Made by a program: the position numbers and the translations under genes
NCBI GenBank assembly: GCA_017464085.1
Contig: JAFUEE010000136.1
Span: forward strand, 1-64,000
Length of the DNA: 64,000 bases
From: Pseudomonadota bacterium
Lineage (GTDB): Bacteria; Myxococcota_A; Bradymonadia; UBA4248
Reading direction: 5' to 3'
Notes under the pieces: generated by a model
Seen by the model: only the letters and a program-made list of their open reading frames with translations
What the model was told of the DNA's origin: nothing
The model's database searches: none
Shown: positions 12,140-51,429 of the stretch, in pieces
How positions within the stretch are numbered: the stretch's first letter is position 1
Layout: the number at the start of each line of letters is the position of its first letter

Positions 12140-12143
12140 GTGC

Positions 12144-15982: not shown

Positions 15983-18900
15983 ATGAGCGAGAATTGTAAG
16001 CGCAGGCTTGCGCTGGCCTGTTGTGCCGCGATGGCGCTTGGTTTTGCGAGCTGCAGTGATGACGGGGCGGGGTCTGCCGGATCGAAGCCGCAGAAATGTG
16101 GCGATCAGGTGTGCACGGACACGCAGAAATGTGTGGACAATGTGTGCAAAGCGCTTTGCGGAACGGATGTCTGCAAAGATGACCAGACGTGCGAGGAAGG
16201 TGTTTGCAAGGACAAGCCTGAAGATCCGTGCGCGAAATGTGATTCTGCAACGCAGATTTGCGAAGATGGCGTATGCAAGGCCAAGCCGGCCGACGATCCG
16301 TGTGCGAAATGCACGGACAAGCAGGTATGCGAGGAAGGTGTCTGCGTGGACAAGCCGGAAGATCCGTGTGACAAGTGCACGAGCGGCCAGGTGTGCGATC
16401 CGGATACGAAAGAATGCGTTGATATCGTCGAGGATCCGTGCCTGAAGTGTTCGGATGACGAGGAATGCGTCAATTTCGAGTGCGTGAAGAAGGATCCGTG
16501 TGCGAACAAGACGTGTCCGGACGGCTATCGCTGCGACCGTGAGAAAGAAGGGGAGTGTGTCGAGATCGACCCCTGCGAGACGGTCGTGTGCCTTGCGGAA
16601 CAGACGTGCGTGAAAGCGCGTTGTGTCGATGATGCGTGTTTGGACAACGGCGTCGAGATGTCATGCGATCCTGGGCAGGTGTGCTCCAAGGGCGAATGTG
16701 TCGATGACGGCTGTGTGAAATCGGACGGCACGCCGGTTTTATGCGATGAAGGCTGGGAATGCATCAAGGGGATCTGTGAGGAGACCGTTTGTCTGGACAA
16801 ATTCTGCGAGGATGGCCGTTCGTGTCGCGGCGGTGTCTGCGTGGACAATGAATGCATTGACATGACCTGCGAGGAAGGACAGATCTGCTCGAAGGGCAGC
16901 TGCACGTATGAGGCATGTCTGGATAAGGATCCGTGCGTGTCGGGCAAAGCCTGCAATGCGGAAGGTGTCTGCGAGTTCATCAAGGCGCCGGCGATTTCGC
17001 TCGACGAGCCCGAAGACAAGACGACGGATGAGTCAGGCAAGACGATCGCGCTGGCGCTGCACCTGAACAACGCGCCGACGGCGGATGTCCGCGTTGCCTG
17101 CGAAGTCGTGACCGAGAGCCCGAACAAAGAGGTTGAGGTGGCTTGCGAGGATATCGTGTTCAATGCCGACAACTGGCAGGGCGAACATACGATTCTCGTG
17201 ACTGGCGTGGAAGACTTCATTAAGGATGGCGATCAGGTCTATCAGATCAAGGTGACGACAGTGTCGGAAGATGCGGATTTCAACGGTCTTGAGACTGCAT
17301 CGGTTGATTTGACAAATATTGACCTGACGGCGCCGGGTTTCACGTTCTCTGCGACTGCGCTGACGACGTATGAAGATCAGCAGCAGGAAGCGGCGACGTT
17401 CACGGTGTCGCTGAACTCCAAGCCGTCTGCCACGGTGAGTCTGGCGGCAATGTCTTCCAACCAGGAAGAGGGCAAGGTGTCGCCTACGACGATACGCTTT
17501 ACGACGGACAACTGGAATCAGCCGCAGACGCTGACGGTTCAGGGTGTCGATGACGATGTCCGCGATGGCAATATTAATTATACGATATTCTTCTCCCCGT
17601 CAGAGTCGAACGATGAGGATTATCAGGGGATTCAGCCCAAATCGATCAAGGTTACGAACATTGATAACGACGTGGCCGGTCTGAACGTGAATATTCCGGC
17701 AGAGGAATATGAGGTTGTGGAAGGCCAGGCGAATGTGATTGTCGTGAAGCTGAACACGAAGCCCAAGCAGGCTGTGAAGGTGAAAGCGAGCGTCGATGAT
17801 GCGACAGAGGCATCGCTCGACATCAAGGAAATCGAGATTGCGCCTGAGGAATGGAGCACTGGCAAGGAGATTCGCATTTCCGGTCTGCGCGACTATGTGA
17901 TCGATGGCGACCAGCCGATAAAGATCAGCTTTGAAGTCGTTTCCGAAGATGAGGACTATCACTTTACGGATCCGATTGTATATGGCGGTACAGTGAAGGA
18001 TATCGATACGGCAGAGCTTGTGCCGTCGCTCGGTGTTTCGCCGATCGTCAAAGAGGGCAGTTCTGATCTGGTGACGGTGTCGCTGTCGCTGTCGTCGAAG
18101 CCGACCAAGGATGTGAATGTTGCGATCTCTGTGACGGATGATACAGAGATCAAGATCAACAAGAAGACGATGAAATTCACCCCGGAGCACTGGGATATGT
18201 CGCAGGATCTGCTTGTGAGCTCTGTGGATGACAGCATAGTGGACGGCGATATCAAGTCGAAGGTTGTGCTGAAGATGACCTCTGCCGACAAGAATTTCAA
18301 CGATGTCACGAAAGAGATCGAGTTCACGACGGTTGATAACGATGTGGCGGGATTTGTGGTCAATTCGAATGCGGCGTCGTTCCCGGAGAACAGCGGATCG
18401 ACGACAACGATGACAGTGGCGCTTTTGGCGCAGCCGCTTGCGGACGTGAAGGTGACAGTGGCGTCTTCGGATGCGACCGAGCTTGCCGTGACGAGCGCCA
18501 ACACGCTGACGTTTACGAAGGACAACTGGAACAATCCTCAGACCGTGAGTGTGAAGGTTGTCGATGACAACATTGCGGATGGCACTCAGACGGCGTGGGT
18601 GAACTTTACGGGTTCATCGACAGATGCGAACTTCAACGGTGTTACGGCGAAGTCGGCGACATATACAATTATTGATAATGATACGGCGTCGATTGTGCTG
18701 ACGACAGATGTGGTGACAGTGCCGCAGGCATCGCCGACGGCGACAGCGGGCGTTCGCCTTGGCGTTCAGCCGAGCGGCAACGTGACGGTGACGATGGCGA
18801 CGACGGATGCGAAGATCATGTCGTTCAGCAAGGCGACATTGACGTTTACGACGGATAACTGGGACAAGCCGCAGAACGTGACAGTGACTGGCAATTTCAA

Positions 18901-19786
18901 CGCGATCGCGACGGCATCCGCGACGGCGACGATTTCCGCCAGCGGCACGGGAGGCGGCTATAATAACATCGTGAGCAACAAGATACCGCTCGAATTCGTG
19001 AAAGTCCCGCTCGTTCAGGATTTTGATTATACAGGCAAGACGCAGACAGTCGGCCTGCCCAAGGGCAAATATAAACTGGAAGTCTGGGGTGCGCAGGGCG
19101 CAAATCACAATGGCGGTCTTGGTGGCAAGGGCGGTTATTCGACGGGCGTGCTGACGCTTGCGAACTCCGCGACGCTTTATATCCAGGTGGCCGGAAAGGG
19201 CAATTCGTATAATGGCGGCTATAATGGCGGCGGCAAATCTGCGCATACGGATGGTGCCGGCGGTGGCGGTGCGACACATATCGCGGTCAAGGACGGCCTG
19301 CTCAAGAACTTCTCCTCGACGTATAAATCGGAGGTGTTCATCATTGCCGGCGGCGGCGGCGGCGGTGCTGAAAATGGCAGCTCTGCCGGCGGCTATGGCG
19401 GCGGGACGAGCGGTGGCACGGGTGGTTACAAGTCGTGTGGTATTTGGGGCGTCGGCGGCACTGGCGGATCCCAGACGGCAGGTGGCGTGCTCGGCAGCAA
19501 CCGCAGCGATGACAGCGAAGGTACGGATGGTTCGTTTGGCATGGGCGGCACCGGCAGCAAAGTCGTGAACGGCGGCGGCGGCGGCGGCGGCGGCCTCTAT
19601 GGTGGCGGCGGCGGCGAAGGCGGCAATCGCTGCAACGCAGCTGGTGGCGGCGGTTCTGGTTATCTCAATGCCTCGCTTGCGAATGCTGAGACGCGCAATG
19701 GCGGCGTTTCGTTCCCGGCGCCGATTGGCGGTACCGAGACCGGTCATACGGGCGACGGCCATGTCAGGATCACGCTTGTGCAGTAA
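15983..19786 (+). CDS. Giant surface lipoprotein, paralog A (Cys-rich / Calx-beta-like / glycine-rich)
   Basis: A 1267-residue lipoprotein, first of four tandem paralogs. AAGGAG precedes the ATG by 7 bases. The signal peptide ends in FASC with Cys24. Residues about 35-330 are an EGF-like Cys-rich region (units such as DPCAKCDSATQICEDGVCK). Residues about 335-1005 are about six repeats of about 110 residues with the Calx-beta-like pattern TADNWxxPQTVTVxGVDD...DGxxxYTI...VTNIDND. Residues about 1007-1267 form a glycine-rich domain starting FDYTGKTQTVGLPKGKYKLEVWGAQG with long GGGGG runs, resembling Pfam PF12810, the glycine-rich domain of ALK/LTK receptors. The head (SAGSKPQKCGDQVC) and tail (THIAVKDGLL) are of the C type; the end (ITLVQ) is like D. 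Probably an outer-surface adhesin or binding protein (inference). Confidence 0.8.
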   Translation: MSENCKRRLALACCAAMALGFASCSDDGAGSAGSKPQKCGDQVCTDTQKCVDNVCKALCGTDVCKDDQTCEEGVCKDKPEDPCAKCDSATQICEDGVCKAKPADDPCAKCTDKQVCEEGVCVDKPEDPCDKCTSGQVCDPDTKECVDIVEDPCLKCSDDEECVNFECVKKDPCANKTCPDGYRCDREKEGECVEIDPCETVVCLAEQTCVKARCVDDACLDNGVEMSCDPGQVCSKGECVDDGCVKSDGTPVLCDEGWECIKGICEETVCLDKFCEDGRSCRGGVCVDNECIDMTCEEGQICSKGSCTYEACLDKDPCVSGKACNAEGVCEFIKAPAISLDEPEDKTTDESGKTIALALHLNNAPTADVRVACEVVTESPNKEVEVACEDIVFNADNWQGEHTILVTGVEDFIKDGDQVYQIKVTTVSEDADFNGLETASVDLTNIDLTAPGFTFSATALTTYEDQQQEAATFTVSLNSKPSATVSLAAMSSNQEEGKVSPTTIRFTTDNWNQPQTLTVQGVDDDVRDGNINYTIFFSPSESNDEDYQGIQPKSIKVTNIDNDVAGLNVNIPAEEYEVVEGQANVIVVKLNTKPKQAVKVKASVDDATEASLDIKEIEIAPEEWSTGKEIRISGLRDYVIDGDQPIKISFEVVSEDEDYHFTDPIVYGGTVKDIDTAELVPSLGVSPIVKEGSSDLVTVSLSLSSKPTKDVNVAISVTDDTEIKINKKTMKFTPEHWDMSQDLLVSSVDDSIVDGDIKSKVVLKMTSADKNFNDVTKEIEFTTVDNDVAGFVVNSNAASFPENSGSTTTMTVALLAQPLADVKVTVASSDATELAVTSANTLTFTKDNWNNPQTVSVKVVDDNIADGTQTAWVNFTGSSTDANFNGVTAKSATYTIIDNDTASIVLTTDVVTVPQASPTATAGVRLGVQPSGNVTVTMATTDAKIMSFSKATLTFTTDNWDKPQNVTVTGNFNAIATASATATISASGTGGGYNNIVSNKIPLEFVKVPLVQDFDYTGKTQTVGLPKGKYKLEVWGAQGANHNGGLGGKGGYSTGVLTLANSATLYIQVAGKGNSYNGGYNGGGKSAHTDGAGGGGATHIAVKDGLLKNFSSTYKSEVFIIAGGGGGGAENGSSAGGYGGGTSGGTGGYKSCGIWGVGGTGGSQTAGGVLGSNRSDDSEGTDGSFGMGGTGSKVVNGGGGGGGGLYGGGGGEGGNRCNAAGGGGSGYLNASLANAETRNGGVSFPAPIGGTETGHTGDGHVRITLVQ

Positions 19787-19837
19787 TTTTGTTTGAGGTG
19801 CACCGCTATCGGCCAATGGCCGATACGCGGCGCTTTG

Positions 19838-19876
19838 GGCCGGGCTATCGCTTCGCGATACGCCCGGCCTTTTTTT
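19838..19876 (+). terminator. Terminator of paralog A
   Basis: GCCGGGC plus TATCGC, loop TTC, then GCGATA plus GCCCGGC and a run of seven T. It is preceded by a second palindrome (TATCGGCCAATGGCCGATA). This double-hairpin cassette is repeated after all four paralogs, and its stem is of the REP-like nested type. Confidence 0.85.
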
Positions 19877-19958
19877 GTATTGTGTCGTTGTGTGTTTGTG
19901 AAAGAATGTATATGATTATGAAAAGAAATATATTGATATGGTTGGATAAATAATTTTC

Positions 19959-19988
19959 TTAACACATGTGCAAAAAAATCGCTATGCT
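19959..19988 (+). promoter_or_regulatory. Possible promoter of paralog B
   Basis: TTAACA (19959-19964), an 18-base spacer and TATGCT (19983-19988), in an AT-rich stretch about 55 bases upstream of the start codon. Confidence 0.4.
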
Positions 19989-20044
19989 CAATAAATCATA
20001 GGTCCAATGCCTTGAAGAAGGCTTTTACTGTGAGGAGCATGAAT

Positions 20045-23000
20045 ATGAACGAGAATTCCAAGCGTAGGCTTGCATTTGCGTGTTGTGCCGCGATGGCGCT
20101 TGCCTTTGCGGGCTGTGGTGATGACGGCGCAGGGAGCGCGAGTGATTCGCGCAAGACTTGCGGGGATGAGGTGTGCACGCCGTCACAGACTTGCGTGGAG
20201 AACCATTGCGTAGAGAACGAGCCGGAAGACCCGTGCGCGAAATGCGATTCGGAAACGCAGATCTGCGAGGAAGGCGTCTGCAAAGACAAGCCCAAAGACC
20301 CGGAAGATCCGTGCGCGAAATGCGATTCAGAGACGCAGATCTGCGAGGAAGGCGTCTGCAAAGACAAGCCGGCCGTCGATCCGTGCGCTGCCTGTGGGGA
20401 GGATCAGGAATGTGTGGAAGGCGTCTGCCAGGATCTGTGCGGAGGGGAACTGTGTACCGGGAGCAAGGTCTGCAATCTTGACACGCAGAAGTGCGAGGAG
20501 CCAGTGAATCCGTGCGATGCGTGTACAGACAAGCAGGAATGCATCAACCTCGAGTGCGTGGACATCGACCCGTGCGCGAACAAGACGTGTCAGGACGGCT
20601 ATCGCTGCGACCGCGAAAAAGACGGGGCGTGTGTCGAGATCGATCCCTGCGAGGGCATCACATGCGGCGATGAGCAGACGTGCATCAAGGCGCACTGCAT
20701 CGACAATGCGTGCTTAGAGAACGGCGTGGAAAAGGACTGTGGGGAGAACATGGTCTGTTCCAAAGGCGAATGCGTCGATGACGGCTGCCAGGACAAGACA
20801 TGTGAAGAAGGGTGGCAGTGCAAGAAGGGCGAATGCGTTGAAACTGCCTGCATCGACTATTTCTGCGATGAAGGACGCTCGTGCAAGGGCGGCAAGTGCG
20901 TCGACAACGAATGCCTCGACATGACCTGCGAAGAAGGCCAGATCTGCTCTAAGGGTAATTGCACTTACGAGATCTGTCTCACCAAAGATCCGTGCTCTGC
21001 CGGCAAGACTTGCGATGAAAACGGCGAATGCGTGTTTATCGTCAGTCCGGCGATTACGCTCGACGAGCCCGAAGACAAGGTGACGGATGAAGCCGGCAAG
21101 TCGATCTCGCTGACGCTTCACCTCAACAATGCGCCGACCTCGGAAGTCCGCGTTGTCTGCGATGCCGTCACGGAAAGCCCCAATAAGGAAATCGAGGCTG
21201 CGTGCGATGAAATCGTCTTCAATGCCGACAACTGGCAGCTCGAGCAGACGATTGTCGTGAAGGGCGTAGACGATTACCTCAAGGATGGCGACCAGGCATA
21301 CAAGCTCAAGGTCACGACAGTTTCCGAAGATGCGGATTTCAACGCGCTCGTCGCGGAATCCGTTGACCTGACGAACATCGACATGACGAAGGCTGGCATT
21401 GTCTTTTCGCAGACAGCGCTGACGACGTATGAGGATCAGGAGCAGCCTGCGGCGACGTTTACGGTGAAGCTGACGTCGATACCGTCCTCGGATGTCAGCC
21501 TGACGCTGAATTCTTCCAATGATAAGGAAGGCGTGGTCACTCCGACGACGCTCAAGTTTACGAAAGAAAACTGGGGTGCGGAGCAGACCGTGACTGTTCA
21601 GGGCAAAGACGATGAGATGCGCGACGGCAACATCAATTACACGGTGTTCTTTGCGCCTGCGGAATCGAATGACGAGGATTATGCCGGGATGCAGCCGTCG
21701 CCGATCAAGGTGACGAACATCGATAACGATGTCGCCGGCCTCAACATCAATATTCCGGCAGAGGATTATGAGATCATCGAGGGACAGGATTCGCTGGTCG
21801 TGGTGAAGCTGAACACGCAGCCAAAGAATGACGTGAAGGTGAGTATCGCGATTGACAATGTGAACGAGGCTGTCTCCGATACGAAGGAGGTCGTGCTGAA
21901 TGCCGAGAACTGGAAAAACGGTGTCAATGTCCGCTTGACGGGTGTGCGCGATTATGTGATTGACGGCGATAAACCAGTCAAGATTACATTTACCTCAGCA
22001 TCAGAGGATGAGGATTACAACCTCGAGCCCGTCGTGTTCGATGCGACGGTCAAGGATATGGATAAGGCTGACCTCGTTGTCTCGATGGGGGATGCTCCGG
22101 TTGTCAAAGAAGGCGACAGCGGTATGGTGACGATGAGCGTATCGCTCGCGTCGAAACCGACAAAAGATGTAACGGTCGCGCTTTCGGTGACGGATCCCTC
22201 CGAGCTGAAGATCAACAAGCAGAGCCTGACATTCAAGCCTGAACATTGGGATATCGGGCAGGATGTGCTTGTCAGTTCAGTCGATGACGATATCGTGGAT
22301 GGCAACATCAAGTCGAAAGTCGTGATGCAGATGACATCTGGCGATAATAACTTTAAGGATAAAACAAAAGAGGTCGAGTTCACGACAGTCGATGACGATG
22401 TGGCCGGGTTCCTGATCAATTCGAATTCGGCGTCATTCCCGGAGGGAAGCGGCGCGACGACATCGATGAAAGTGAGCTTGCAGTCACAGCCGACAGCAGA
22501 TGTGAAGGTGACGGTGTCGTCGACGGATGCGTCGGAGCTTCAGGTGACGAGCGCGTCGACGCTGACATTTACGACATCGAACTGGAAGACGCCTCAGGAA
22601 GTTTCTGTAAAAGTCGTGGACGATCATATTGCAGATGGCACGCAGACCGCGCAGGTCAAGTTCGTCGGCGCGTCAAGCGATGCGAATTTCAACGGCATTA
22701 CCGGTTATTCGGCACTTTATACGATTACGGACGATGATGCGCCTTCGATTGTTCTGACATCAGCTGTGACGACGATTCCGCAGGCATCTCCGAGCACAGT
22801 CGCAAGCGTCGCGCTCGGCATTGAGCCGACCTCGAACGTCACGGTGACGCTCGTCTCTGACCATAAGGCGATCACGTTTAGCCCGTCGACGCTGACGTTC
22901 ACGACTGCCAACTGGGACAAGGCGCAGGAAGTCAAGGTGAATGCTGATTTCTCCGGCATTGCAACTGCCTCTGCGACGGCGAACATCACCGCCAAAGCGA

Positions 23001-23878
23001 CAGCGAGCAACAGCTACAACAGCGTTGTGAGCAATGCGATTGCGCTTAACTTGGTCAAGGTGCCTGAAGTTCAGAACTTTGCCTATACGGGCAAGGTACA
23101 GTCGGTGAGTTTGCCCAAAGGCAAGTATAAGCTTGAGGTCTGGGGCGCTCAGGGCGGCGGCAGCGGCAATGGTGGTAAAGGCGGTTATTCGGTCGGCACC
23201 GTGACATTGGGTAATACGACGCAGGTTTACGTTTATGTTGGTGGTCAGGGGACAAACAGCACTTCTACTGGCGCCGGTTGGAATGGCGGTGGTTACCCGA
23301 CATTGGATAGCTATTATGGTGGTGGCGGTGGTACGGATATTCGTATCGGTTCCGATTCATTGTATTCTCGAGTCATTGTTGCAGGCGGCGGCGGCGGCTA
23401 TCGTTCATCTGGGTTTACGCCTGGTGGTGGCGGTGGTTTGACGAGCTTCCTTGGAACGCCTTCGGATGATTATTGTGCAGCGCATGTGGCGACGATTTCC
23501 AATGCTGGTGAATCGATTGCAAACGGTGGCAAATCTTCCTGGGGACAATATGTGACGGATGGTTCCTATGGGCAGGGCGGTAGCTGGATTTCTAATGCTG
23601 GTACGCTGAGCGGTTTTGCAGGCGGCGGCGGCGGCTGGTATGGCGGCGGTGCCGGTCATGCGCCGACAGGCGGGTCTGGCTGGGTCTATACAGCGACGAA
23701 CTACACGAACTGGAAGGCGGGCAATGCCGCAGATGCGAACAAATATACGCTCAGCAGCGTCTATTATCTGGAAAATGCCCAGACGACAGCTGGCAACGCC
23801 TCCTTGCCGCTTCCTTCTGGTGGCACCGAGACCGGTCACACCGGCAACGGCTATGCCCGTATCACGCTCGTCAAATAA
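20045..23878 (+). CDS. Giant surface lipoprotein, paralog B
   Basis: A 1277-residue paralog of A. Of two in-frame ATGs, the second (20045) is 7 bases after GAGGAG and is chosen; the first is only 1 base away. Lipobox FAGC. The head differs from A (GDDGAGSASDSRKTCGDEVC, as in D) and is followed by EGF-like Cys units, about six Calx-beta-like repeats and a glycine-rich domain from about residue 1005 (VQNFAYTGKVQSVSLPKGKYKLEVWGAQ). The glycine-rich domain is of the TDIRIGSDSLYSR type, shared with D, not the THIA type of A and C. It ends ITLVK, like C. Parts of the glycine-rich segment (about 23200-23620) use more A/T-ending codons than the rest of the gene. Likely surface-exposed; ligand unknown. 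Confidence 0.8.
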   Translation: MNENSKRRLAFACCAAMALAFAGCGDDGAGSASDSRKTCGDEVCTPSQTCVENHCVENEPEDPCAKCDSETQICEEGVCKDKPKDPEDPCAKCDSETQICEEGVCKDKPAVDPCAACGEDQECVEGVCQDLCGGELCTGSKVCNLDTQKCEEPVNPCDACTDKQECINLECVDIDPCANKTCQDGYRCDREKDGACVEIDPCEGITCGDEQTCIKAHCIDNACLENGVEKDCGENMVCSKGECVDDGCQDKTCEEGWQCKKGECVETACIDYFCDEGRSCKGGKCVDNECLDMTCEEGQICSKGNCTYEICLTKDPCSAGKTCDENGECVFIVSPAITLDEPEDKVTDEAGKSISLTLHLNNAPTSEVRVVCDAVTESPNKEIEAACDEIVFNADNWQLEQTIVVKGVDDYLKDGDQAYKLKVTTVSEDADFNALVAESVDLTNIDMTKAGIVFSQTALTTYEDQEQPAATFTVKLTSIPSSDVSLTLNSSNDKEGVVTPTTLKFTKENWGAEQTVTVQGKDDEMRDGNINYTVFFAPAESNDEDYAGMQPSPIKVTNIDNDVAGLNINIPAEDYEIIEGQDSLVVVKLNTQPKNDVKVSIAIDNVNEAVSDTKEVVLNAENWKNGVNVRLTGVRDYVIDGDKPVKITFTSASEDEDYNLEPVVFDATVKDMDKADLVVSMGDAPVVKEGDSGMVTMSVSLASKPTKDVTVALSVTDPSELKINKQSLTFKPEHWDIGQDVLVSSVDDDIVDGNIKSKVVMQMTSGDNNFKDKTKEVEFTTVDDDVAGFLINSNSASFPEGSGATTSMKVSLQSQPTADVKVTVSSTDASELQVTSASTLTFTTSNWKTPQEVSVKVVDDHIADGTQTAQVKFVGASSDANFNGITGYSALYTITDDDAPSIVLTSAVTTIPQASPSTVASVALGIEPTSNVTVTLVSDHKAITFSPSTLTFTTANWDKAQEVKVNADFSGIATASATANITAKATASNSYNSVVSNAIALNLVKVPEVQNFAYTGKVQSVSLPKGKYKLEVWGAQGGGSGNGGKGGYSVGTVTLGNTTQVYVYVGGQGTNSTSTGAGWNGGGYPTLDSYYGGGGGTDIRIGSDSLYSRVIVAGGGGGYRSSGFTPGGGGGLTSFLGTPSDDYCAAHVATISNAGESIANGGKSSWGQYVTDGSYGQGGSWISNAGTLSGFAGGGGGWYGGGAGHAPTGGSGWVYTATNYTNWKAGNAADANKYTLSSVYYLENAQTTAGNASLPLPSGGTETGHTGNGYARITLVK

Positions 23879-24187
23879 TTTCCTGTTCTGACTGCACCGC
23901 TATCGGCCATTGGCCGATACGCGGCGCTTTGGGCCGGGCTATCGCCGAAGGCGATACGCCCGGCTTTTTTATTTTTGCGCGGCGTATCGCGAAGCGATAG
24001 CCGCGCGCCGGCGCGTATGCCGCAGGCATAGCGGCCGGCCCCTGAATAAAAATCGTCAGCCTCATGGGCGTGATAAAGTGTACCGCGACTGTGGCTGAAA
24101 AACTGATGTACAGGCTGTAAATTTGATACTACAATTTGGATGTCGTGATGTTTAGCCAGGTCTGGCTTTTTTATAAGGAGTATGAAT
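23879..24187. other. Spacer between paralogs B and C
   Basis: 309 bases. It holds the double-hairpin terminator cassette, then REP-like palindromes (about 23977-24043, GCGCGGCGTATCGCGAAGCG type and GCGTATGCCGCAGGCATAGC type), then a promoter-bearing AT-rich stretch. AAGGAG at 24175-24180 serves paralog C. No gene. Confidence 0.6.
23933..23970 (+). terminator. Terminator of paralog B
   Basis: GCCGGGC plus TATCGCC, loop GAAG, then GGCGATA plus GCCCGGC and six T. Same cassette as after A, C and D. Confidence 0.85.
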
Positions 24188-27100
24188 ATGAACGAAAATT
24201 CCAAGCTTAAGCTTGCATTTGCATGTTGTGCGGCGATGGCGCTTGCATTTGCGGGCTGCAGTGATGACGGTGCGGGTTCTGCCGGATCGAAGCCGCAGAA
24301 ATGCGGGGATCAGGTGTGTACGGACACGCAGAAATGTGTGGACAATGTGTGCAAATCGCTTTGCGGAACGGATGTCTGCAAGGATGACCAGACGTGTGAA
24401 GACGGCGTCTGCAAGGACAAGCCGGCCGATGATCCGTGCGCGAAATGTGATTCAGAGACGCAGATTTGCGAAGACGGCGTCTGCAAGGACAAGCCGGCCG
24501 ATGATCCGTGTGCCGATTGCGCCTCGCAGGGCAAAGTCTGTGACCCGGCGACCAGGACATGCATCGATCCTCCTGAGGATCCGTGCTCCTTGTGCACGGA
24601 CAAGCAGGAATGCGTCAATCTGGTGTGCGTGGACATCGATCCGTGCGCGAACAAGACGTGTCAGGACGGCTACCGCTGCGACCGCGAGAAAGATGGGGAG
24701 TGTGTGGCGATTGATCCCTGCGAGGGGATTTCTTGTTTGGCAGACCAGACGTGCATCAAGGCGCACTGTATTGATAATGCGTGCATCGAAGATGGCGCGG
24801 AAAAGAATTGCGGGGAGAACAAGGTCTGTTCGAAGGGCGAATGCGTCGATGACGGCTGCGTGAAAGACGGCACGCCCGTGTCATGCGATGAGGGATGGCA
24901 GTGTATTAAAGGGCTCTGCGAGGAAACGGCATGTATCGACTATTTCTGCGAAGAAGGTCGTTCGTGCAAGGGCGGCAAGTGCGTAGACAACGAATGCCTC
25001 GACATGACCTGCGAAGAAGGCCAGATCTGCTCTAAGGGAAATTGCACTTACGAAATCTGCCTCGACAAGGATCCGTGTTCAGCCGGCAAGGTCTGCAATG
25101 CAGAGGGAGCTTGCGAATTTATCACGGCGCCAGCAATCGCGCTTGATGAGCCTGAGGATAAGACGACGGATGAGGCGGGCAAGGCCGTGTCGCTGACGCT
25201 CCACCTCAACAACGCGCCGACAGCGGATGTCCATGTGTCATGCGAGGTCGTGACCGAGAGCCCCAACAAGGAAGTGGACGCGGCTTGCGAGGAGATCGTG
25301 TTCAATGCCGACAACTGGCAGCACGAACAGACGATTATCGTGACCGGCGTCGATGATTATTTGAAGGATGGCGACCAGACCTATACGATCAAGGTCACGA
25401 CAGTTTCTGAAGATGCGGATTTCAACGCGCTCGTCGCGGAATCTGTGGGGCTGACGAATATTGATACGACAAAGGCTGGGTTCGTGTTCTCGGCGGCTTC
25501 GCTGACGACGTATGAAGATCCCGAAGCCGAAGCTGCGACGTTTACTGTCCAGCTGTCGTCAATTCCAGCATCGGATGTCAGCCTGACGCTTTCGTCATCC
25601 AATGAAAAAGAAGGCATTGTTTCGCCCAAACAGCTCAAGTTTACCAAAGAGAATTGGGGGGAACTTCAGACGGTTACCGTCAAGGGGGTGGATGATAACG
25701 TCCGCGATGGCAATGTGAACTATACGATATTTTTCGCGCCATCAGAATCGAATGATGAAGATTATAATGGCATTCAGCCTGTATCCATCAAGGTGACGAA
25801 TGTGGATAATGATGTCGCTGGCATAAATGTCAACATTCCGGCGGAGGATTATGTCATTGCCGAAGGCGAAAGCCATCTTTTGAGCGTGAAGCTCAATACG
25901 CAGCCGAGGCATGATGTCACGGTCACGATCAGCGTGGACGATGCGACAGAGGCGGAGCTTGACATCGATAAGGTCGTGCTGAACTCAGAGAACTGGAATG
26001 TCGGGGTTCCGGTCAGTCTTTCCGGCGTGATCGATCATGAGATAGATGGCGATCAGCCATTCAAAGTGACATTCACGGTTTCATCCGAAGATGAGGATTA
26101 TAATTTTGAGCCACGCGTGTATTCCGGCATTGTAAAGGATGCTGACAAAGCAGATCTGGTGACGATTCTCGGTGATTCTCCGATTGTCCGCGAGGGCGAT
26201 GGCGGATTTGTGACCATGAGCGTTTCGCTTGCTTCAAAGCCTACTAAAGCGGTCACCGTGGCGCTTTCTGTGACGGATGGTACGGAGCTGAAGATTAACA
26301 AGCCGGAGCTGACGTTCAAGCCGGAACAGTGGGATATCGGGCAGGATGTGCTTGTGAGTTCCGTTGACGATGAGATTGTGGATGGCGATATCAAGTCTAA
26401 AGTCGTGATGAAGATGACATCTGCTGATGCACATTTTGATGGTGTGAGCAAGGAAGTAGAATTCACGACGTTGGATAACGATATTCCAGGATTTGTGATC
26501 AGCTCGAACGCTGCTTCATTCCCTGAAAACAGTGGTTCGACGGCTTCGATGACTGTTGCGCTTCAGGCTCAGCCGACTGCGGATGTCAAAGTATCTGTGT
26601 CTTCTAGCGATGTGACGGAACTCGCGGTGACGAGTGCGTCCACATTGACCTTTACGCAGGCAGATTGGAAAACGCCGCAGACTGTGAATGTGAAGGTTCA
26701 GGATGATAACATTGCGGACGGCACGCAGACTGCGGTCGTGAAGTTCGTCGCGAGCTCATCTGATCCTAAATTTAATGGCATTACAGGACAGTCGGCGTTG
26801 TATACGATCATTGATAATGAGATGCCATCGATTGTTCTGACTGCGGCTGAAACGACTATTCCTCAGGCATCTCCCAGCACTACGGCAAAAGTTCGTCTTG
26901 GTGTTCAGCCTAGTTCCAATGTGACGGTTACGCTTGTCGCGAGCGATCCTAAAATCCTTTCATTCAGCCCTGCGACAGTGACGTTTACGACGAATGACTG
27001 GAATCAGGATAAGTCCGTGACTGTGGCGGCTGATTTCAATCTGATTCAATCGGCATCTGCTACGGCGACAATCTATGGAAAGGCGTCTGGCGACAAGAAC

Positions 27101-27907
27101 TATGCCAATATTGAAAGCAACAAAGTCAATCTTGATTTGGTCAAGATTGCCGAAGTTCAGAATTTTGCCTACACTGGCGATATCCAGTCAGTCAATCTTC
27201 CCAAAGGGCGTTACAAACTTGAAGTTTGGGGCGCGGAAAGCGGCAAGGGCAGCGGCACAGGGACTTCGACGAATGGCGGTTATTCTTCGGGCATCGTTAC
27301 GCTTGCGTCCAGCACGACGCTTTATGTCGTTGTGGGCGGCAAAGGGGAGTCAGGCATAAACAACAGCGTGAGGAATGCTGTGGGCGGCTATAATGGCGGC
27401 GGATACAGCTATTCGCATTGCACATGTAATGCCGGCGGCGCAGGCGGCGGCGCGACGCATATCGCGACAAAGACGGGGCTTTTGGAAACGCTTGAGTCGT
27501 CTAAATCAAATGTTTTGATTGTTGCCGGCGGAGCCGGTGGGGCTGGCTGGAACGGTCAGGGCGGTTATGGCGGCGGTGCCAATATGAGCGGTGGCAATGG
27601 CGGAGACGGCAATGGCGGCACGGTTTCATCGGGTTATCGGTTCGGGCTTGGTCAGGGCGGTTCCCACTCGGCGTGTTCCGGTTCCAATAGTGTGCATGCC
27701 GGCGGTGGTGGCGGCGGTTATTATGGCGGCTATGCCAAGGGGACATTGACCTCCAATGCAGGTGGCGGCGGCGGCTCTGGTTTTGCCAGCGCGTCGTTGA
27801 GTTCGGTTGTGGGATACAATGGCAATGTCTCTATGCCTGCGCCTGCTGGCGGTTCAGAAACGGGGCACACTGGTAACGGCTATGCCCGTATCACGCTCGT
27901 CAAATAA
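24188..27907 (+). CDS. Giant surface lipoprotein, paralog C
   Basis: A 1239-residue paralog. The start at 24188 lies 7 bases after AAGGAG (the ATG at 24182 is too close). The head SDDGAGSAGSKPQKCGDQVC and the following LCGTDVCKDDQTC are nearly identical to A, while the first residues (MNENSK) and upstream flank resemble B. It has EGF-like Cys units to about residue 310, about six Calx-beta-like repeats to about 985, then a glycine-rich domain (VQNFAYTGDIQSVNLPKGRYKLEVWGAE) of the THIATKTGLL type shared with A, ending ITLVK like B. The second half uses noticeably more A/T-ending codons than A. Surface lipoprotein of unknown ligand. Confidence 0.8.
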   Translation: MNENSKLKLAFACCAAMALAFAGCSDDGAGSAGSKPQKCGDQVCTDTQKCVDNVCKSLCGTDVCKDDQTCEDGVCKDKPADDPCAKCDSETQICEDGVCKDKPADDPCADCASQGKVCDPATRTCIDPPEDPCSLCTDKQECVNLVCVDIDPCANKTCQDGYRCDREKDGECVAIDPCEGISCLADQTCIKAHCIDNACIEDGAEKNCGENKVCSKGECVDDGCVKDGTPVSCDEGWQCIKGLCEETACIDYFCEEGRSCKGGKCVDNECLDMTCEEGQICSKGNCTYEICLDKDPCSAGKVCNAEGACEFITAPAIALDEPEDKTTDEAGKAVSLTLHLNNAPTADVHVSCEVVTESPNKEVDAACEEIVFNADNWQHEQTIIVTGVDDYLKDGDQTYTIKVTTVSEDADFNALVAESVGLTNIDTTKAGFVFSAASLTTYEDPEAEAATFTVQLSSIPASDVSLTLSSSNEKEGIVSPKQLKFTKENWGELQTVTVKGVDDNVRDGNVNYTIFFAPSESNDEDYNGIQPVSIKVTNVDNDVAGINVNIPAEDYVIAEGESHLLSVKLNTQPRHDVTVTISVDDATEAELDIDKVVLNSENWNVGVPVSLSGVIDHEIDGDQPFKVTFTVSSEDEDYNFEPRVYSGIVKDADKADLVTILGDSPIVREGDGGFVTMSVSLASKPTKAVTVALSVTDGTELKINKPELTFKPEQWDIGQDVLVSSVDDEIVDGDIKSKVVMKMTSADAHFDGVSKEVEFTTLDNDIPGFVISSNAASFPENSGSTASMTVALQAQPTADVKVSVSSSDVTELAVTSASTLTFTQADWKTPQTVNVKVQDDNIADGTQTAVVKFVASSSDPKFNGITGQSALYTIIDNEMPSIVLTAAETTIPQASPSTTAKVRLGVQPSSNVTVTLVASDPKILSFSPATVTFTTNDWNQDKSVTVAADFNLIQSASATATIYGKASGDKNYANIESNKVNLDLVKIAEVQNFAYTGDIQSVNLPKGRYKLEVWGAESGKGSGTGTSTNGGYSSGIVTLASSTTLYVVVGGKGESGINNSVRNAVGGYNGGGYSYSHCTCNAGGAGGGATHIATKTGLLETLESSKSNVLIVAGGAGGAGWNGQGGYGGGANMSGGNGGDGNGGTVSSGYRFGLGQGGSHSACSGSNSVHAGGGGGGYYGGYAKGTLTSNAGGGGGSGFASASLSSVVGYNGNVSMPAPAGGSETGHTGNGYARITLVK

Positions 27908-27962
27908 TTTCCTGTTCTGATTGCACCGCTCTCGGCCTTTTGGCCGATACGCGGCGCTTGGG

Positions 27963-28000
27963 GCCGGGCTATCGCCGAAGGCGATACGCCCGGCCTTTTT
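27963..28000 (+). terminator. Terminator of paralog C
   Basis: GCCGGGCTATCGCC, loop GAAG, GGCGATACGCCCGGC, then a T-run. The T-run and the following ATTTT also form the left flank of a MITE insertion. Confidence 0.8.
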
Positions 28001-28005
28001 ATTTT

Positions 28006-28168
28006 GGCTCTGTTCAACAGGCGTGGATATGGTTCCAGAACGTATGATCGGCAATCGAGCATCGATAGTCTCTCCGCATAAAAGCTATTACCTTTATCAT
28101 GCGCACTGCAGCCCACCTTCTATTGCCTGCTGCCTTGTATTTCATATCCACAGACGTTGAACACAGCC
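28006..28168 (+). mobile_element. MITE-like element, copy 2 (best-preserved ends, with target-site duplication)
   Basis: A 163-base element with terminal inverted repeats: GGCTCTGTTCAAC at the left and GTTGAACACAGCC at the right, extended inward by GTGGATATG/CATATCCAC. The flanks are TTTTTATTTT (27996-28005) and TTTTTATTTC (28169-28178), a 9 of 10 match consistent with a target-site duplication inside the T-run of the paralog C terminator. No coding capacity. It is related to 1166-1325 and 57615-57768. Confidence 0.8.
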
Positions 28169-28358
28169 TTTTTATTTCTGCGCTGCGTATCGCGATGCAT
28201 TGGCCGAAAATCTATATGTATGCTTCGGGCATGGCTGTGTGTGTGATGGGCATCTGTTTCTTGATTTGTATGAAAAAATTGTTAAAGATGATAGGGTGTT
28301 TGAGCCGCTTTGTTTTTTGCCTTGCTCTGATGACAAAGGCTTTTTTATGGAGGAAAAA

Positions 28359-31300
28359 ATGAGCGAGATTTCAAAACGTAGGCTTGCATTTGCCTGCTGC
28401 GCCGCCATGGCGCTTGGTTTTGTGGGCTGCGGGGACGATGGTGCCGGGAGTGCGAGTGATTCGCGCAAGACCTGCGGCGATGAAGTATGCACGCCGTCAC
28501 AGACTTGCGTGGAGAACCATTGCGTCGAGAACGACACTTTAGATCCGTGCGCGAAATGCGATTCAGAGACTCAGATCTGCGAGGATGGCGTCTGCAAGGA
28601 CAAGCCGGAAGATGATCCGTGCGCGAAATGCGATCCAGCGACGCAGATCTGCGAGGATGGCGTCTGCAAGGACAAGCCGGAAGATCCGTGCGCGAAATGC
28701 ACAGAAGCGCAAAAATGCGTGGAAGGCGTCTGCAAGGATCTCTGCGGCAGCGAAGTGTGCGCGGATGATATGATCTGCAACCCCGACACGCAGAAATGCG
28801 AGAAGCCTGTCAATCCATGCGATGAATGCACGGATAAGCAGGAATGCGTCAATTTTGAGTGTGTGGACGTCGATCCGTGCGCGAACAAGACCTGCCCGGA
28901 TAACCAGCGCTGCGACAGCACTCAGGATGGCAAGTGCGTGGATATCGATCCCTGCGAGAATGTTCCGTGTTCGGCTGGACTGAGCTGCATCAAGGGGCAT
29001 TGCGTCGAGGATGCGTGCATCGAGAATGGCGAAGAGAAGGTTTGCGAAAATAATCAGGTCTGCTCTGCTGGTGAATGCGTGCCCGGCGGATGCGCCGGCG
29101 TGAAGTGTGACGAAGGCTGGCAGTGCATGTCGTTCCCATGCGATGAGAACTCGAGCTCTGCTGAGTGTCAGAACGGCTATAGAGGACAGTGCGTTGAAAC
29201 CATCTGCATCGACTATTTCTGCGATGAGGGCCGTTCGTGCAAGGGCGGCAAGTGCGTCGACAACGAATGCCTCGATATGACCTGCGAGGAAGGCCAGATC
29301 TGCTCGAAGGGCAATTGCACCTATGAAATCTGTCTCACCAAAGATCCGTGCTCGGCCGGCAAGACGTGCGATGAGGACGGCGAATGCGTGTTTATCGTCG
29401 ATCCGGCAATCGCGCTCGACGAGCCTGAAGACAAGACGACAGATGAGGCTGGCAAGAGCTTGTCGCTGACGCTCCACCTCAACAATGCGCCGACTGCGGA
29501 TGTCCATGTGTCATGCGAAGTCGTGACCGAAAGCCCCAACAAGGAAGTGGACGCGGCTTGCGAGGAAATCGTGTTCAACGCCGACAACTGGCAGCTCGAA
29601 CAGACAATCGTCGTGACCGGTGTCGATGATTATCTCAAAGACGGCGACCAGGTCTATAAGCTCAAGGTCACGACTGTCTCTGAGGATGCGGATTTTAACG
29701 AGCTCGTCGCGGAATCCGTCGAACTGACGAATATTGACAAGACCACTCCAGGCATTGTCGTCTCTGAGACTGCGCTGACGACGTATGAAGATCAGGCGCA
29801 GGAAGCCGCAAGCTTCAGCATTGTGCTGACGTCGATTCCTTCTGCAGATGTCAACCTCACTTTGTCTTCGTCGAATCCGAATGAAGGCGTCGCGACCCCG
29901 ACTACGCTCAAGTTCACAAAAGACAACTGGAATGAGCCTCATGTCGTGACCGTCAAAGGCGTCGATGATAACGCGCACGATGGCAACAAGAATTACACGA
30001 TTTTCTTCTCCCCCTCTGAATCTAATGACGAGGATTATAACGAAAAGCAGCTCACCCCGATCAAGGTGACGAATGTCGATAACGATGTCGCCGGTTTAAG
30101 CGTCAACCTTCCTGAAGCATTCGTTCTTTTGGAAGGGCAGACTATGCCGCTTCTTGTCAGGCTCAACACTCTGCCAAAGAAAGATGTCAAAATCACCATG
30201 AATGTGGATGATAAGACAGAAGCCGAGTTTGAAGAAGCCGAAGTCACGCTGACTCCCGAAAACTGGAACACCGGTATTGAAATTCATCTCAAAGGCGTAG
30301 CTGACAGTGTGATTGATGGCGATCAGCCGGTCAAGGTGACGTTCAAGGTCGAATCGGAAGATGAAGATTACAACTTCGATGCGATTGATTTTGAGGGCAC
30401 AGTTCAGGATACCGATACGGCTGAAGTCATTTACAACATGGGCGATCTCCCGATAGTCAAAGAAGGCGACAGCGGTTTCGTGACGATGAGCGTTTCGCTT
30501 TCTTCCAAGCCGACCAAAGATGTGACGGTTGCACTTTCGGTGACGGATGACAGCGAGCTCAAGCTCAACAAGAAGACGCTGACGTTCAAGCCCAATTATT
30601 GGGATATCGGGCAGGACGTGCTTGTCAGTTCTGTGGATGACGATATCGTCGATGGCAACATCAAGTCGAATGTCGTGATGAAGGCGACCTCGGGGGATGC
30701 GAACTTCAACAACAAGGTGACAGAAGTCGAATTCATGACTGTCGATGACGATGAAGCTGGATTTGTGATCAGCTCAAATGCTGCTTCATTCCCCGAGAAC
30801 AGCGGTTCGACGACTTCGATGACGATTGCGCTCAAAGCGCAGCCGACTGCCGATGTCAAGGTTGCGGTCACCTCGACAGACGCTTCCGAACTTGCGGTGA
30901 CATCCGCCAGCTCGATCACATTCACGACGAAGAATTGGAAGACGCCGCAGACTGTGACCGTCAAGGTTGTCGATGATAACATCGCAGATGGCACGCAGAC
31001 CGCCCAGGTCAAGTTCGTCGCTTCATCGTCTGACAAGAATTTCAACGGTGTGACTGATTATTCGGCCAAATATACGATTATCGATAATGATGCAGCATCT
31101 GTCGTTGTGACGACTGCCGCCACGCAGCTGTCGTCCGGCATGACCAGCACGACCGGCACCGTGGCGCTCGGCACGCAGCCCAGCGGCAGCGTGACCGTGA
31201 CGATGACCGCGAGCAACGCGAATTACATCACGTTCAACCCGGTTAAGGTGACGTTTACGGAAGCGAACTGGAACAAGCCGCAGAACTTCACGCTGACGGG

Positions 31301-32249
31301 CAATCTCAATGCAGTTGCCGGTTCGCAGGCCAATGTGAACATCTATGGCAAGGCTTCCGGCGGCGAATATAACAACGTCCAGAGCAACACGATTGCGATG
31401 AATCTGCTCAAGGTGCCTCAGGTCCAGAACTTTGCCTATACGGGCAAAGTCCAGAGCGTGTCGTTGCCTGCCGGCAAGTACAAGCTCGAAGTCTGGGGCG
31501 CTCAGGGGGGGAGCGGGGGACATCCAACACTAAGTTCTAATTATCCAGGGGGTAAAGGCGGTTATGCGACAGGAATTATCACCCTAGCAACAGCAACGAA
31601 TGTTTATGTTTATGTTGGTGGTGCCGGGTCTAAAGGATATTTGGAGAAGCAGATTAATTTAGGTGGGTTTAATGGTGGTGGTGCATCTGCTGCATGCACA
31701 AGCACAAACAAAAATTCAGGCAGTGGTGGCGGCGCTTCTGATATTCGCATTGGCAAAGATAGTCTATATGCAAGAGCTATTGTTGCTGGTGGTGGCGGTG
31801 GCGGTGGTAACCATTATTGGTATACTGGAGAATATAATGGAACTGGCGGCGCTGGTGGGGGGATTAATGGCGAAAATGGCCATAATAATAACAGTAATGG
31901 TATTGGAATTGGGGGAACAGCATCAAGTGGAGCTGCGTTTGGGGTAGGTGCAACTTCTGAGACCAATTCGTGTATGTCAGGTGCAGGCGGCGGTGGCGGC
32001 TGGTATGGTGGAAGGGCTTCGGCAACGGGGCGATGTGTTCATACTGATGGTGCAGGCGGTGGTTCTGGGTATGTGTATACGTCGTCAACGTATACTAACT
32101 ATCCGGCCGGTTGTCTGTTGAATAGCAATTACTATCTCGGCAGTGCACAAACAATTCAGGGAACTGTCTCCACGATGCCTTCCACGCTTGGCGGCACGGA
32201 GACCGGTCATGCCGGCAATGGCTATGCGCGTATCACGTTGGTTCAGTAA
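28359..32249 (+). CDS. Giant surface lipoprotein, paralog D
   Basis: A 1296-residue paralog. The true start is ATG 28359, 5 bases after GGAGG; the frame is open 53 codons further upstream but without a signal peptide. Lipobox FVGC. The head (GDDGAGSASDSRKTCGDEVC) matches B; the first residues (MSE) match A. It has EGF-like Cys units including an extra loop (MSFPCDENSSSAECQ), about six Calx-beta-like repeats, and a glycine-rich domain from about residue 1017 of the SDIRIGKDSLYAR type shared with B, ending ITLVQ like A. From about 31505 to 32150 the glycine-rich segment is clearly richer in A/T and uses different codons (AAT, GGT, ACA), then returns to the usual style for the last about 30 codons, which suggests an imported cassette. 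Confidence 0.8.
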   Translation: MSEISKRRLAFACCAAMALGFVGCGDDGAGSASDSRKTCGDEVCTPSQTCVENHCVENDTLDPCAKCDSETQICEDGVCKDKPEDDPCAKCDPATQICEDGVCKDKPEDPCAKCTEAQKCVEGVCKDLCGSEVCADDMICNPDTQKCEKPVNPCDECTDKQECVNFECVDVDPCANKTCPDNQRCDSTQDGKCVDIDPCENVPCSAGLSCIKGHCVEDACIENGEEKVCENNQVCSAGECVPGGCAGVKCDEGWQCMSFPCDENSSSAECQNGYRGQCVETICIDYFCDEGRSCKGGKCVDNECLDMTCEEGQICSKGNCTYEICLTKDPCSAGKTCDEDGECVFIVDPAIALDEPEDKTTDEAGKSLSLTLHLNNAPTADVHVSCEVVTESPNKEVDAACEEIVFNADNWQLEQTIVVTGVDDYLKDGDQVYKLKVTTVSEDADFNELVAESVELTNIDKTTPGIVVSETALTTYEDQAQEAASFSIVLTSIPSADVNLTLSSSNPNEGVATPTTLKFTKDNWNEPHVVTVKGVDDNAHDGNKNYTIFFSPSESNDEDYNEKQLTPIKVTNVDNDVAGLSVNLPEAFVLLEGQTMPLLVRLNTLPKKDVKITMNVDDKTEAEFEEAEVTLTPENWNTGIEIHLKGVADSVIDGDQPVKVTFKVESEDEDYNFDAIDFEGTVQDTDTAEVIYNMGDLPIVKEGDSGFVTMSVSLSSKPTKDVTVALSVTDDSELKLNKKTLTFKPNYWDIGQDVLVSSVDDDIVDGNIKSNVVMKATSGDANFNNKVTEVEFMTVDDDEAGFVISSNAASFPENSGSTTSMTIALKAQPTADVKVAVTSTDASELAVTSASSITFTTKNWKTPQTVTVKVVDDNIADGTQTAQVKFVASSSDKNFNGVTDYSAKYTIIDNDAASVVVTTAATQLSSGMTSTTGTVALGTQPSGSVTVTMTASNANYITFNPVKVTFTEANWNKPQNFTLTGNLNAVAGSQANVNIYGKASGGEYNNVQSNTIAMNLLKVPQVQNFAYTGKVQSVSLPAGKYKLEVWGAQGGSGGHPTLSSNYPGGKGGYATGIITLATATNVYVYVGGAGSKGYLEKQINLGGFNGGGASAACTSTNKNSGSGGGASDIRIGKDSLYARAIVAGGGGGGGNHYWYTGEYNGTGGAGGGINGENGHNNNSNGIGIGGTASSGAAFGVGATSETNSCMSGAGGGGGWYGGRASATGRCVHTDGAGGGSGYVYTSSTYTNYPAGCLLNSNYYLGSAQTIQGTVSTMPSTLGGTETGHAGNGYARITLVQ
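31505..32150 (+). other. Segment of atypical base composition within paralog D
   Basis: Within the glycine-rich domain, codon choice switches abruptly from GC-ending (GGC, AAC, ACG) to AT-ending (GGT, AAT, ACA) just after the WGAQG block and switches back near the ETGHAGNGYARIT block. The conserved flanks would be ideal for homologous exchange of the middle. Judged by reading, not by a computed profile. Confidence 0.6.
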
Positions 32250-32302
32250 TTCTGTTTGAGGTGCACCGCTATCGGCCTTTTGGCCGATACGCGGCGCTTT
32301 GG

Positions 32303-32340
32303 GCCGGGCTATCGCCGAAGGCGATACGCCCGGCCTTTTT
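32303..32340 (+). terminator. Terminator of paralog D
   Basis: Same GCCGGGCTATCGCC / GGCGATACGCCCGGC hairpin with a T-run, followed by REP-like palindromes (32342-32412) up to the converging cysteine synthase gene. Confidence 0.85.
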
Positions 32341-32341
32341 G

Positions 32342-32412
32342 ATTTTGGCGCGGCGTATCGCGCAGCGATAGCCGCGCGCCGGCGCGTATGCCGCAGGCAT
32401 AGCGGCGGCCCC
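32342..32412. repeat. REP-like palindromes
   Basis: GGCGCGGCGTATCGC / GCGATAGCCGCGC and GCGTATGCCGCAGGCATAGC in tandem, nearly identical to the block after paralog B at 23977-24043. Confidence 0.7.
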
Positions 32413-32424: not shown

Positions 32425-33348
32425 TCAGGGGACGGGCTCGAACAGGGATTTGCTGAAATATCTGTCGCCCCGGTCGGGGAGGACGCAGACGATGTTGCCG
32501 GTCACGCCGGATCGCGCGAGTTTGAGCGCGCCGCACAGGGCTGCGCCGGAAGAAGAGCCCGCGATGATGCCTTCTCTTCTTGCAAGCTCGCGGCAGGTGT
32601 CGATGGCTTCGCGGTCGGTGATCTTGACGGACAGGTCCATCAGCGAGATATCGAGCGTGTCCGCAATGAAATCGTTTCCGATTCCCTCGATGTTATAGTC
32701 GGCGTGTTCCCCGCCGGTGATTGTCGAGCCGACGGGGTCTGCGATCACGGCCTTGAGCGCTGGCAGGCGCGATTTGAGGTAACGCGCGATGCCGGTGAAG
32801 GTGCCGCCGGAGCCTGCGCCTGCAATGAAATAATCGATTTTGCCATCGAGGTCCTGATAGATTTCCGGGCCGGTCGTTTCATAGTGGGATTGCGGATTGC
32901 TCTGGTCGGAAAACTGGTTGAGCAGGACAGAGCCGGGGATTTTCTGGTGCAGTTCGGCAGCTCTCCTGCCGGCTTCGAGCATGCCGCCTTCGCGCGGCGT
33001 GTGGATGATTTCTGCGCCGAGTGCCTGCATCAGGACCTGTTTTTCTTCGGAGAATTTTTCTGGGACGACAAAAATGATGCGGTAGTTCCGGTTGAGCGCG
33101 GCGAAAGCGATGCCAAGCCCCGTGTTGCCTGCCGTTGCCATGATGACCGTGCCGCCTTCGCGCAGGTCGCCGCGCTGCTCGGCGGCTGCAAGCATGTGCC
33201 TGCCCGTGCGGTCTTTGACGCTTCCGAGCGGGTTGTATAATTCGAGCTTTGCAAAGATATTGACGCCCTCGGGGAGATCGAAATGCCCGATTTTGACGAG
33301 CGGCGTGTGACCGATGAGATCATGGAATGAGCTGTAGTAGTGCATCAT
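32425..33348 (-). CDS. cysK: Cysteine synthase / cystathionine beta-synthase-like PLP enzyme
   Basis: A 307-residue fold-type II PLP enzyme. The PLP lysine is in NPLGSVKDRTG (about 45). The substrate loop reads TAGNTG where most O-acetylserine sulfhydrylases have TSGNTG. The phosphate-binding loop GAGSGGTFTG (about 180) and the C-terminal SSSGAA are intact. It makes cysteine from O-acetylserine, or, given its neighbour, cystathionine from homocysteine and (acetyl)serine as in MccA. It overlaps the preceding cystathionine enzyme gene by 4 bases (ATGA), so they are coupled. It is last in the operon led by the poly-Cys leader ORF. CysK, CysM and MccA cannot be separated by eye. Confidence 0.85.
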   Translation of the reverse strand: MMHYYSSFHDLIGHTPLVKIGHFDLPEGVNIFAKLELYNPLGSVKDRTGRHMLAAAEQRGDLREGGTVIMATAGNTGLGIAFAALNRNYRIIFVVPEKFSEEKQVLMQALGAEIIHTPREGGMLEAGRRAAELHQKIPGSVLLNQFSDQSNPQSHYETTGPEIYQDLDGKIDYFIAGAGSGGTFTGIARYLKSRLPALKAVIADPVGSTITGGEHADYNIEGIGNDFIADTLDISLMDLSVKITDREAIDTCRELARREGIIAGSSSGAALCGALKLARSGVTGNIVCVLPDRGDRYFSKSLFEPVP

Positions 33349-38336: not shown

Positions 38337-38494
38337 GTGAGATTCGCCGGCCGGCAGCCGCGTATCCCGAAGGCTGGGGGTTCTAAAAGCATGTAAACGC
38401 ATCGTTTCAATCGGGGCTATGAAAATCCGGCAGAGTACTGTATGATGACGGAAGTCAGTCCTTTTTTATGCGTATGGCAAGATTCGGAGGGGAG

Positions 38495-51390: not shown

Positions 51391-51429
51391 ATATGATGGG
51401 TGCCTTTTGTTTACTTTTTGGAGTGTGTG

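Follow-up and report, generated by a model that had tools for sequence, protein, structure and literature searches.

How four adjacent genes for very large lipoproteins came to share their heads, tails and extreme ends in different combinations is the question raised by the stretch of DNA analysed here (the window, 64,000 nt; positions 1 to 64,000 of contig JAFUEE010000136.1, assembly GCA_017464085.1, Pseudomonadota bacterium). The genes, called A, B, C and D, are four neighbouring open reading frames (ORFs) on the + strand. A preliminary description attributed the pattern to duplication of a two-gene unit, (A-B)(C-D), followed by exchange of gene ends. The ORFs, head and tail motifs, N-termini and last residues that it quoted are all present, and the mosaicism is real, but the proposed origin is contradicted by the tail trees. 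We consider it likely that A–D are tethered lipoproteins of a large family in which tip and body have separate histories and which has become mosaic by recombination.

Each protein comprises, in order, a lipoprotein-type signal (MSENCKRRLALACCAAMALGFAS-C in A), a head rich in Cys, a run of about six ~111-residue repeats and a C-terminal glycine-rich domain (GRD), the tail or tip. The genes and their principal parts are as follows.

15983..19786, +: gene A, ORF; 1267-residue lipoprotein with Cys-rich head, beta-sandwich repeats and THIA-type GRD tail; PF12810 3.7e-29
20045..23878, +: gene B, ORF; 1277-residue lipoprotein, DIR-type GRD tail; PF12810 2.4e-40
24188..27907, +: gene C, ORF; 1239-residue lipoprotein, THIA-type GRD tail; PF12810 2.8e-32
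28356..32249, +: gene D, ORF; 1297-residue lipoprotein, DIR-type GRD tail; PF12810 8.4e-49 (the longest ORF call opens at 28200, MSEISKRRLAF at 28356)
19046..19777, +: A tail, ALK/LTK-type glycine-rich domain; sister of the G2 C245 tail
23102..23869, +: B tail, ALK/LTK-type glycine-rich domain; sister of the G4b tail
27188..27898, +: C tail, glycine-rich domain; no sister resolved in the tree
31455..32240, +: D tail, glycine-rich domain; no sister resolved in the tree
21047..23068, +: B stalk, about six ~111-residue repeats (residues about 335–1008; repeat count read from the sequence), beta-sandwich fold

G0 denotes the genome of the window, G1–G7 related genomes and C-numbers their contigs; G4b is the second family gene on G4 C52. 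G4 is an uncultured Myxococcales metagenome-assembled genome (MAG), and G2 is RGIG7731, a congener from water buffalo rectum; these two are the named relatives of this uncultivated lineage. PF12810 domains number 27 in G0, 16 in G2, six in G4 and two each in G1, G3 and G5, and are present in none of 14 control genomes.

Separate ancestries of tips and bodies

In a tree of 15 tails of the close group (support values are quoted in pairs, as given), three have their nearest relatives in other species: B is the sister of G4b (100/99), A of the G2 C245 tail (100/98), and the tail of the C125 paralogue of that on G4 C112 (99/98). The approximately unbiased (AU) test rejects A and C as sisters (p 0.0065), and likewise B and D (p 0.0001). 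A–D and the three G4 tails are each rejected as a clade, and in a set of 33 rows the eight tails of G0 are also rejected as one clade (log-likelihood difference, dlnL, 157). The body tree instead joins the two G4 genes as sisters (100/100), and the union of B with G4b is rejected (AU p 1e-178, dlnL 199; p 2.5e-6, dlnL 242 in a larger taxon set). An ABCD clade is rejected against the other paralogues (p 0.025), as is the pair of A and B (p 0.026), while the pairs of A with C and B with D are neither recovered nor rejected. On these trees, the body of B groups with its own genome while its tip groups with G4b. Because their ancestries differ, tip and shaft would have been recombined in the course of evolution and not copied together as one gene pair.

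The tail motifs that alternate along the array (THIA..GLL in A and C, DIRIG.DSLY.R in B and D) are scattered through the family, with 20 THIA-type and 24 DIR-type tails among 58 proteins and fragments from several genomes; judged by this distribution, the pairing denotes subtype and does not reflect kinship. A further array, of six tandem members belonging to a different body clade, lies on C35 of G0 (52.9–76.4 kb; L032, L033), and one of its tips is matched in G2 C179 at 86% identity.

The position of the change in ancestry is seen in the per-column identity of B, expressed as identity to G4b minus identity to its own paralogues. This difference is −0.144 (interval −0.176 to −0.112) in the body and +0.286 (0.215 to 0.356) in the glycine-rich core, and is not different from 0 in the blocks flanking the tip. 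The flip occurs at the conserved YKLEVWGA block and is reversed in the final ~25 residues, which are likewise conserved. The same geometry is found between gene a of G4 and C112, whose DNA identity falls from 89% immediately ahead of the tip to 55% in the core and rises to 96% over the last 78 bp. The earlier picture of conserved blocks around variable tails was thus correct as geometry, since the identity switches fall in those blocks.

The tempo of change is a different matter. Eight orthologous tips of G0 and G2 at dispersed loci are 81–88% identical, compared with 53–80% for comparable bodies, and so the tips are conserved modules and not hypervariable antigens. In the A–D subfamily, all G0–G2 tip pairs fall below this range, the best reaching 61%, which hints at a faster turnover of tips than at the dispersed loci, although G2 is fragmented at these genes. 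The tips of B and G4b are 74% identical in amino acids, with a nonsynonymous divergence (dN) of 0.24 and a synonymous divergence (dS) of about 2, and their divergence looks like ordinary divergence between species and not like recent transfer.

Mosaic topology along the four genes

Along A–D, sliding identities and quartet sites reveal not a single topology but one that changes repeatedly. The arrangement AC/BD (A with C, B with D) prevails in the head, where it is backed by 44 of the 46 informative sites of the first head block; AD/BC is found at columns ~377–446, AC/BD again at 499–589 and AB/CD at 590–649, with mixtures beyond. The quartet sites form 175 topology runs against a permutation mean of 232, fewer than any of 10000 permutations, and a home-made pairwise homoplasy index (PHI) test on head and body together is significant (p 0.002). 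Together, the quartet runs, the trees and the identity flips support recombination between paralogues, on a wider scale than was first proposed. The tracts that stand out are listed here.

15983..16305, +: A head tract, 88% DNA identity to C 24188–24513
24188..24513, +: C head tract, counterpart of that of A, 88% DNA identity to A 15983–16305
20045..20350 (approximate limits), +: B head tract with the SASDSRKTCGDEVC block in common with D; B–D dS 0.76, dN 0.04, 55 codons
25178..25300 (approximate limits), +: C stalk tract, the youngest, common to D (near 29450–29572); C–D proportion of synonymous differences (pS) 0.17, 40 codons

In most of the A–D body, dS is about 0.8–2.4. The low exceptions are the A–C head (dS 0.34, dN 0.03 over 51 codons, where A–B dS is 1.86), columns 581–620 of C and D (pS 0.17) and one stalk part of the G4 pair (0.43). 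The youngest stalk tract includes an exact 35-bp match of C and D at 25259/29532, and their amino-acid identity is 97% at columns 590–649. These values mark the A/C and B/D heads as short tracts of conversion and the array as a mosaic, old for the most part and with only a few younger tracts. The AC/BD head signal is confined to a short tract (~51 codons), against the higher dS of most of the body.

The head motifs pair A with C (SAGSKPQKCGDQVC) and B with D (SASDSRKTCGDEVC). The pairing of A with D and of B with C, noted previously, is retained in the N-termini, the last residues and the first bases of the 3' flanks (TGTTTGAGGTGCACCGC in A and D, TTTCCTGTTCTGAYTGCACCGCT in B and C), but not in the 5' flanks, where neither pair has similarity upstream of the ribosome-binding site past a short start region. 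The N-terminal pairing comprises 3–6 residues only, and the MSE start is also found in the unlinked paralogue C125. B and C have in common an exact run of 46 bp spanning the stop codon; the longest exact repeat among A–D is 55 bp. The array illustrates how motifs that agree at the ends of paralogues may give a false picture of duplication history.

Protein plan and competing explanations

The lipoprotein signals of A–D contain a signal peptidase II lipobox with its Cys (LGFAS-C, LAFAG-C; read by eye), and Cys24 is invariant in the alignment. All four tails match PF12810, the ALK/LTK glycine-rich domain, with 102.9–167.2 bits over profile positions 2–242/243 (Pfam gathering cut-off 24.5). An AlphaFold2 (AF2) model of the tip has a mean predicted local distance difference test (pLDDT) score of 64, with good confidence in the beta parts only. 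All 21 of its Foldseek matches in the PDB with E <= 0.001 are ALK or LTK (E 5e-7 to 3e-5, probability 1.0), yet the template modelling (TM) score is ~0.3 and pLDDT is low in the Gly-rich part. ALK and LTK are also the sole, weak matches in a profile search of PDB sequences. The tips resemble the ectodomains of human ALK and LTK in profile score and Foldseek matches, but differ in forming the end of a bacterial lipoprotein that has no kinase and carries a stalk of beta-sandwich repeats. A search of A–D against NCBIfam gave zero matches, and a search of the literature to hand on bacterial PF12810 proteins turned up nothing useful.

The stalk repeats, modelled as tandem beta-sandwiches (AF2, three repeats, mean pLDDT 94.2), find cadherin-, Ig- and integrin-like multidomain proteins in Foldseek. 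Their Calx-beta (PF03160) scores of 22.8 bits in C (E 9.9e-5), 18.0 in A and 10.1 in D lie below the cut-off of 27, and they are labelled Calx-beta-like only. In the adhesins BapP and LapA, tandem Calx-beta-like beta-sandwich repeats of ~110 residues form the stalk of a large surface protein (PMC12153261); the A–D stalk is alike in its tandem beta-sandwich repeats, whereas the A–D proteins are lipid-anchored at the N terminus and bear another tip. The T-even phage adhesin gp38 is a binding tip at the end of the fibre, a polyglycine sandwich with glycine-rich motifs between variable loops (PMC6851490). It is a phage protein with a much smaller domain, for which no sequence or fold match to A–D was found, and its likeness to the glycine-rich A–D tip is an analogy only. 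With this architecture, A–D would be displayed at the cell surface and are probably adhesins or receptors, and the domain family and domain order suggest that the ALK/LTK-type tip most likely binds a specific ligand. If so, each conserved tip lineage would represent a separate specificity, and the two switch blocks would predict how new pairings form.

The mechanism that we favour concerns a protein whose predicted lipid anchor is followed by a head rich in disulfides, by about six beta-sandwich repeats that form the stalk, and by a glycine-rich tip. Tip lineages would be kept across species under purifying selection, and homologous recombination (gene conversion) would homogenise the stalk, head and last ~25 codons among the paralogues of a genome. 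The switch points lie in the conserved YKLEVWGA block that precedes the tip and in the conserved last block (TETGHTGNGYARITLV). The four-gene array would then be a mosaic of conversion tracts, not a duplicated pair. We can speculate, with clearly less conviction than attaches to the separate histories themselves, that this amounts to a modular receptor system, in which ALK-like tips form discrete trans-species lineages and are re-paired through the two conserved blocks with continually homogenised shafts.

The converse, that it is the tips which pass from one paralogue to another, possibly also from cell to cell, by recombination in the flanking blocks while bodies descend vertically, is somewhat less probable again, although much in the data would agree with it. 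The switch points lie in both tip-flanking blocks, the tip pairs of the A–D subfamily are less similar than those at dispersed loci, and body-less tail fragments exist. One of them, on G2 C72 (L085:144-496), sits at a locus syntenic with D and has 84% DNA identity to the tail of G2 C223; others are found on G2 C80 (L095) and G4 C230 (L099). The model for such a process is provided by Rhs genes, in which core and C-terminal tip are evolutionarily decoupled, as credited to homologous recombination, and dissociated tips occasionally occur (Jackson et al. 2009, PMC2935791). Phylogenetic decoupling of core and tip is also seen in the A–D family, which lacks a YD-repeat core, downstream tip arrays and any sign of toxin/immunity pairs, and whose tips, being glycine-rich domains, are flanked by a conserved block on each side. 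Moreover, Rhs cores of E. coli cluster by locus, whereas A–D family bodies cluster by genome. Decoupling of tip and scaffold, known for toxin systems such as Rhs and for phage fibres, is now seen in tethered lipoproteins tipped with an ALK domain. In G0, displaced-tip arrays downstream of intact genes were not found, all 27 GRDs lying in ORFs of at least 593 residues, and tail-only fragments are single in G2 and G4. Homogenisation of the shaft is tentatively favoured over transfer of tips because the divergence of the B and G4b tips looks vertical.

The remaining explanations fare worse. Tandem duplication of the unit (A-B)(C-D) with later end swaps would account for heads that pair A with C and B with D and for alternating tail subtypes, but is very unlikely, given that the tail sisters it predicts are rejected in favour of relatives in other species, that the body tree splits A–D and recovers neither pair, and that the tail subtypes are family-wide; a duplicated A–B unit is rejected by the tail trees and unsupported by the body tree. 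Still less credible is antigenic or phase variation, in which cassettes are rapidly exchanged into an expressed gene for a surface protein, as might be expected of a multigene family with divergent tips between conserved blocks. Systems of the vls or pilS type are defined by silent promoterless cassettes and an expression locus; no silent cassettes were seen among the 27 GRDs of G0, orthologous tips are more conserved than bodies, and synonymous divergence indicates little recent exchange. The suggestion of ongoing exchange, made previously, is for these reasons and on account of near-saturated divergence not demonstrated. A chimeric joining of paralogues in the MAG is equally improbable: although the assembly has 199 contigs and family genes tend towards contig ends (G2 C222, C72), the longest exact repeat among A–D is too short to mislead normal assembly, and the same pattern occurs independently in G4 and G2.

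Several points weigh against the interpretation preferred here. Several of the groups subjected to AU tests were chosen in the light of earlier trees, and the alignments in the glycine-rich core are gappy. The incongruence of the A and G2 C245 bodies is non-significant by the AU test (p 0.17), as is the home-made PHI test on the body alone (p 0.10). Synonymous sites are close to saturation for most of the A–D divergence, which leaves the limits and ages of the tracts ill defined. In the tip model, pLDDT is below 50 at 149–232, the glycine-rich half, to which the low TM scores to ALK are to be added. The family is represented by fragmented assemblies, of which those with names are MAGs. Finally, the sequence pattern cannot fully separate tip replacement from stalk homogenisation.

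3' flanks and the surrounding locus

All four genes are followed by a double hairpin.

19787..19875, +: 3' flank of A, terminator-like; GCTAT..ATACGC type hairpins (19801–19875), then a T run
23879..23972, +: 3' flank of B, same hairpin class (23890–23970)
27908..28000, +: 3' flank of C, same hairpin class (27920–28000)
32250..32342, +: 3' flank of D, same hairpin class (32260–32340)

The class is described by GCTAT-X-loop-X'-ATACGC, with one bulged base and a freely covarying inner stem X; bulge-base variants are absent in the loci examined. It has 826 matches in G0 against 126 for a mirror control (about 700 copies), and 269–772 (controls 14–104) in all seven other family genomes searched, and stays at control level in seven genomes outside the family. 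An Rfam search of the array region returned no match above threshold. The hairpin looks like a family-specific structural element, be it a terminator, a REP-like (repetitive extragenic palindromic) element or a protein-binding hairpin; we know of no match for this class. The exact GGGCCGGGCTATCGC hairpin is confined to B, C, D and C111. The 3' flank similarity was considered as a family-specific recombination site and rejected, the hairpin being one example of a genome-wide class; as GGGCCGGGCTATCGC belongs to this class, flank similarity is also weak evidence of shared ancestry. A further copy of the hairpin is present in the window at 50799–50820. Four Y1_Tnp (PF01797) matches occur on C183, C177 and C16 of G0, and these proteins are possible partners of the hairpins, should the latter be REP-like.

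Two genes anchor the array.

12114..14357, +: upstream synteny anchor, TSP3-repeat protein; in G2 C222 a family gene comes next
32425..33348, −: cysM-like PALP gene, downstream synteny anchor (PF00291 1.5e-71); same position in G2 C72 beside the tail fragment

In G2 C222, the same upstream genes (74–77% identity) precede a family gene broken off at the contig end, and in G2 C72 the same cysM, Cys/Met and LCM-type genes adjoin the tail-end fragment, which lies on the side occupied by D in the window. Because the anchors adjoin family sequence on both contigs, the array locus is common to G0 and G2; a search for family genes beside the anchors in G1, G3, G5, G6 and G7 revealed none within contig reach.

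Three other genes of the window are of interest. An 861-residue protein (38468–41053, +) contains four DsbA/thioredoxin-like stretches and is a possible oxidase or isomerase for many Cys-rich proteins. A 292-residue ORF (14498–15376, −) bears a weak likeness to Rpn-family recombination-promoting nucleases (42.7 bits, below the cut-off of 52.1), and a relative of it lies beyond cysM in G6. Finally, a 1100-residue protein (51400–54702, +) contains five DUF285 stretches and has homologues beside GRD genes elsewhere (L037, L039, L046).

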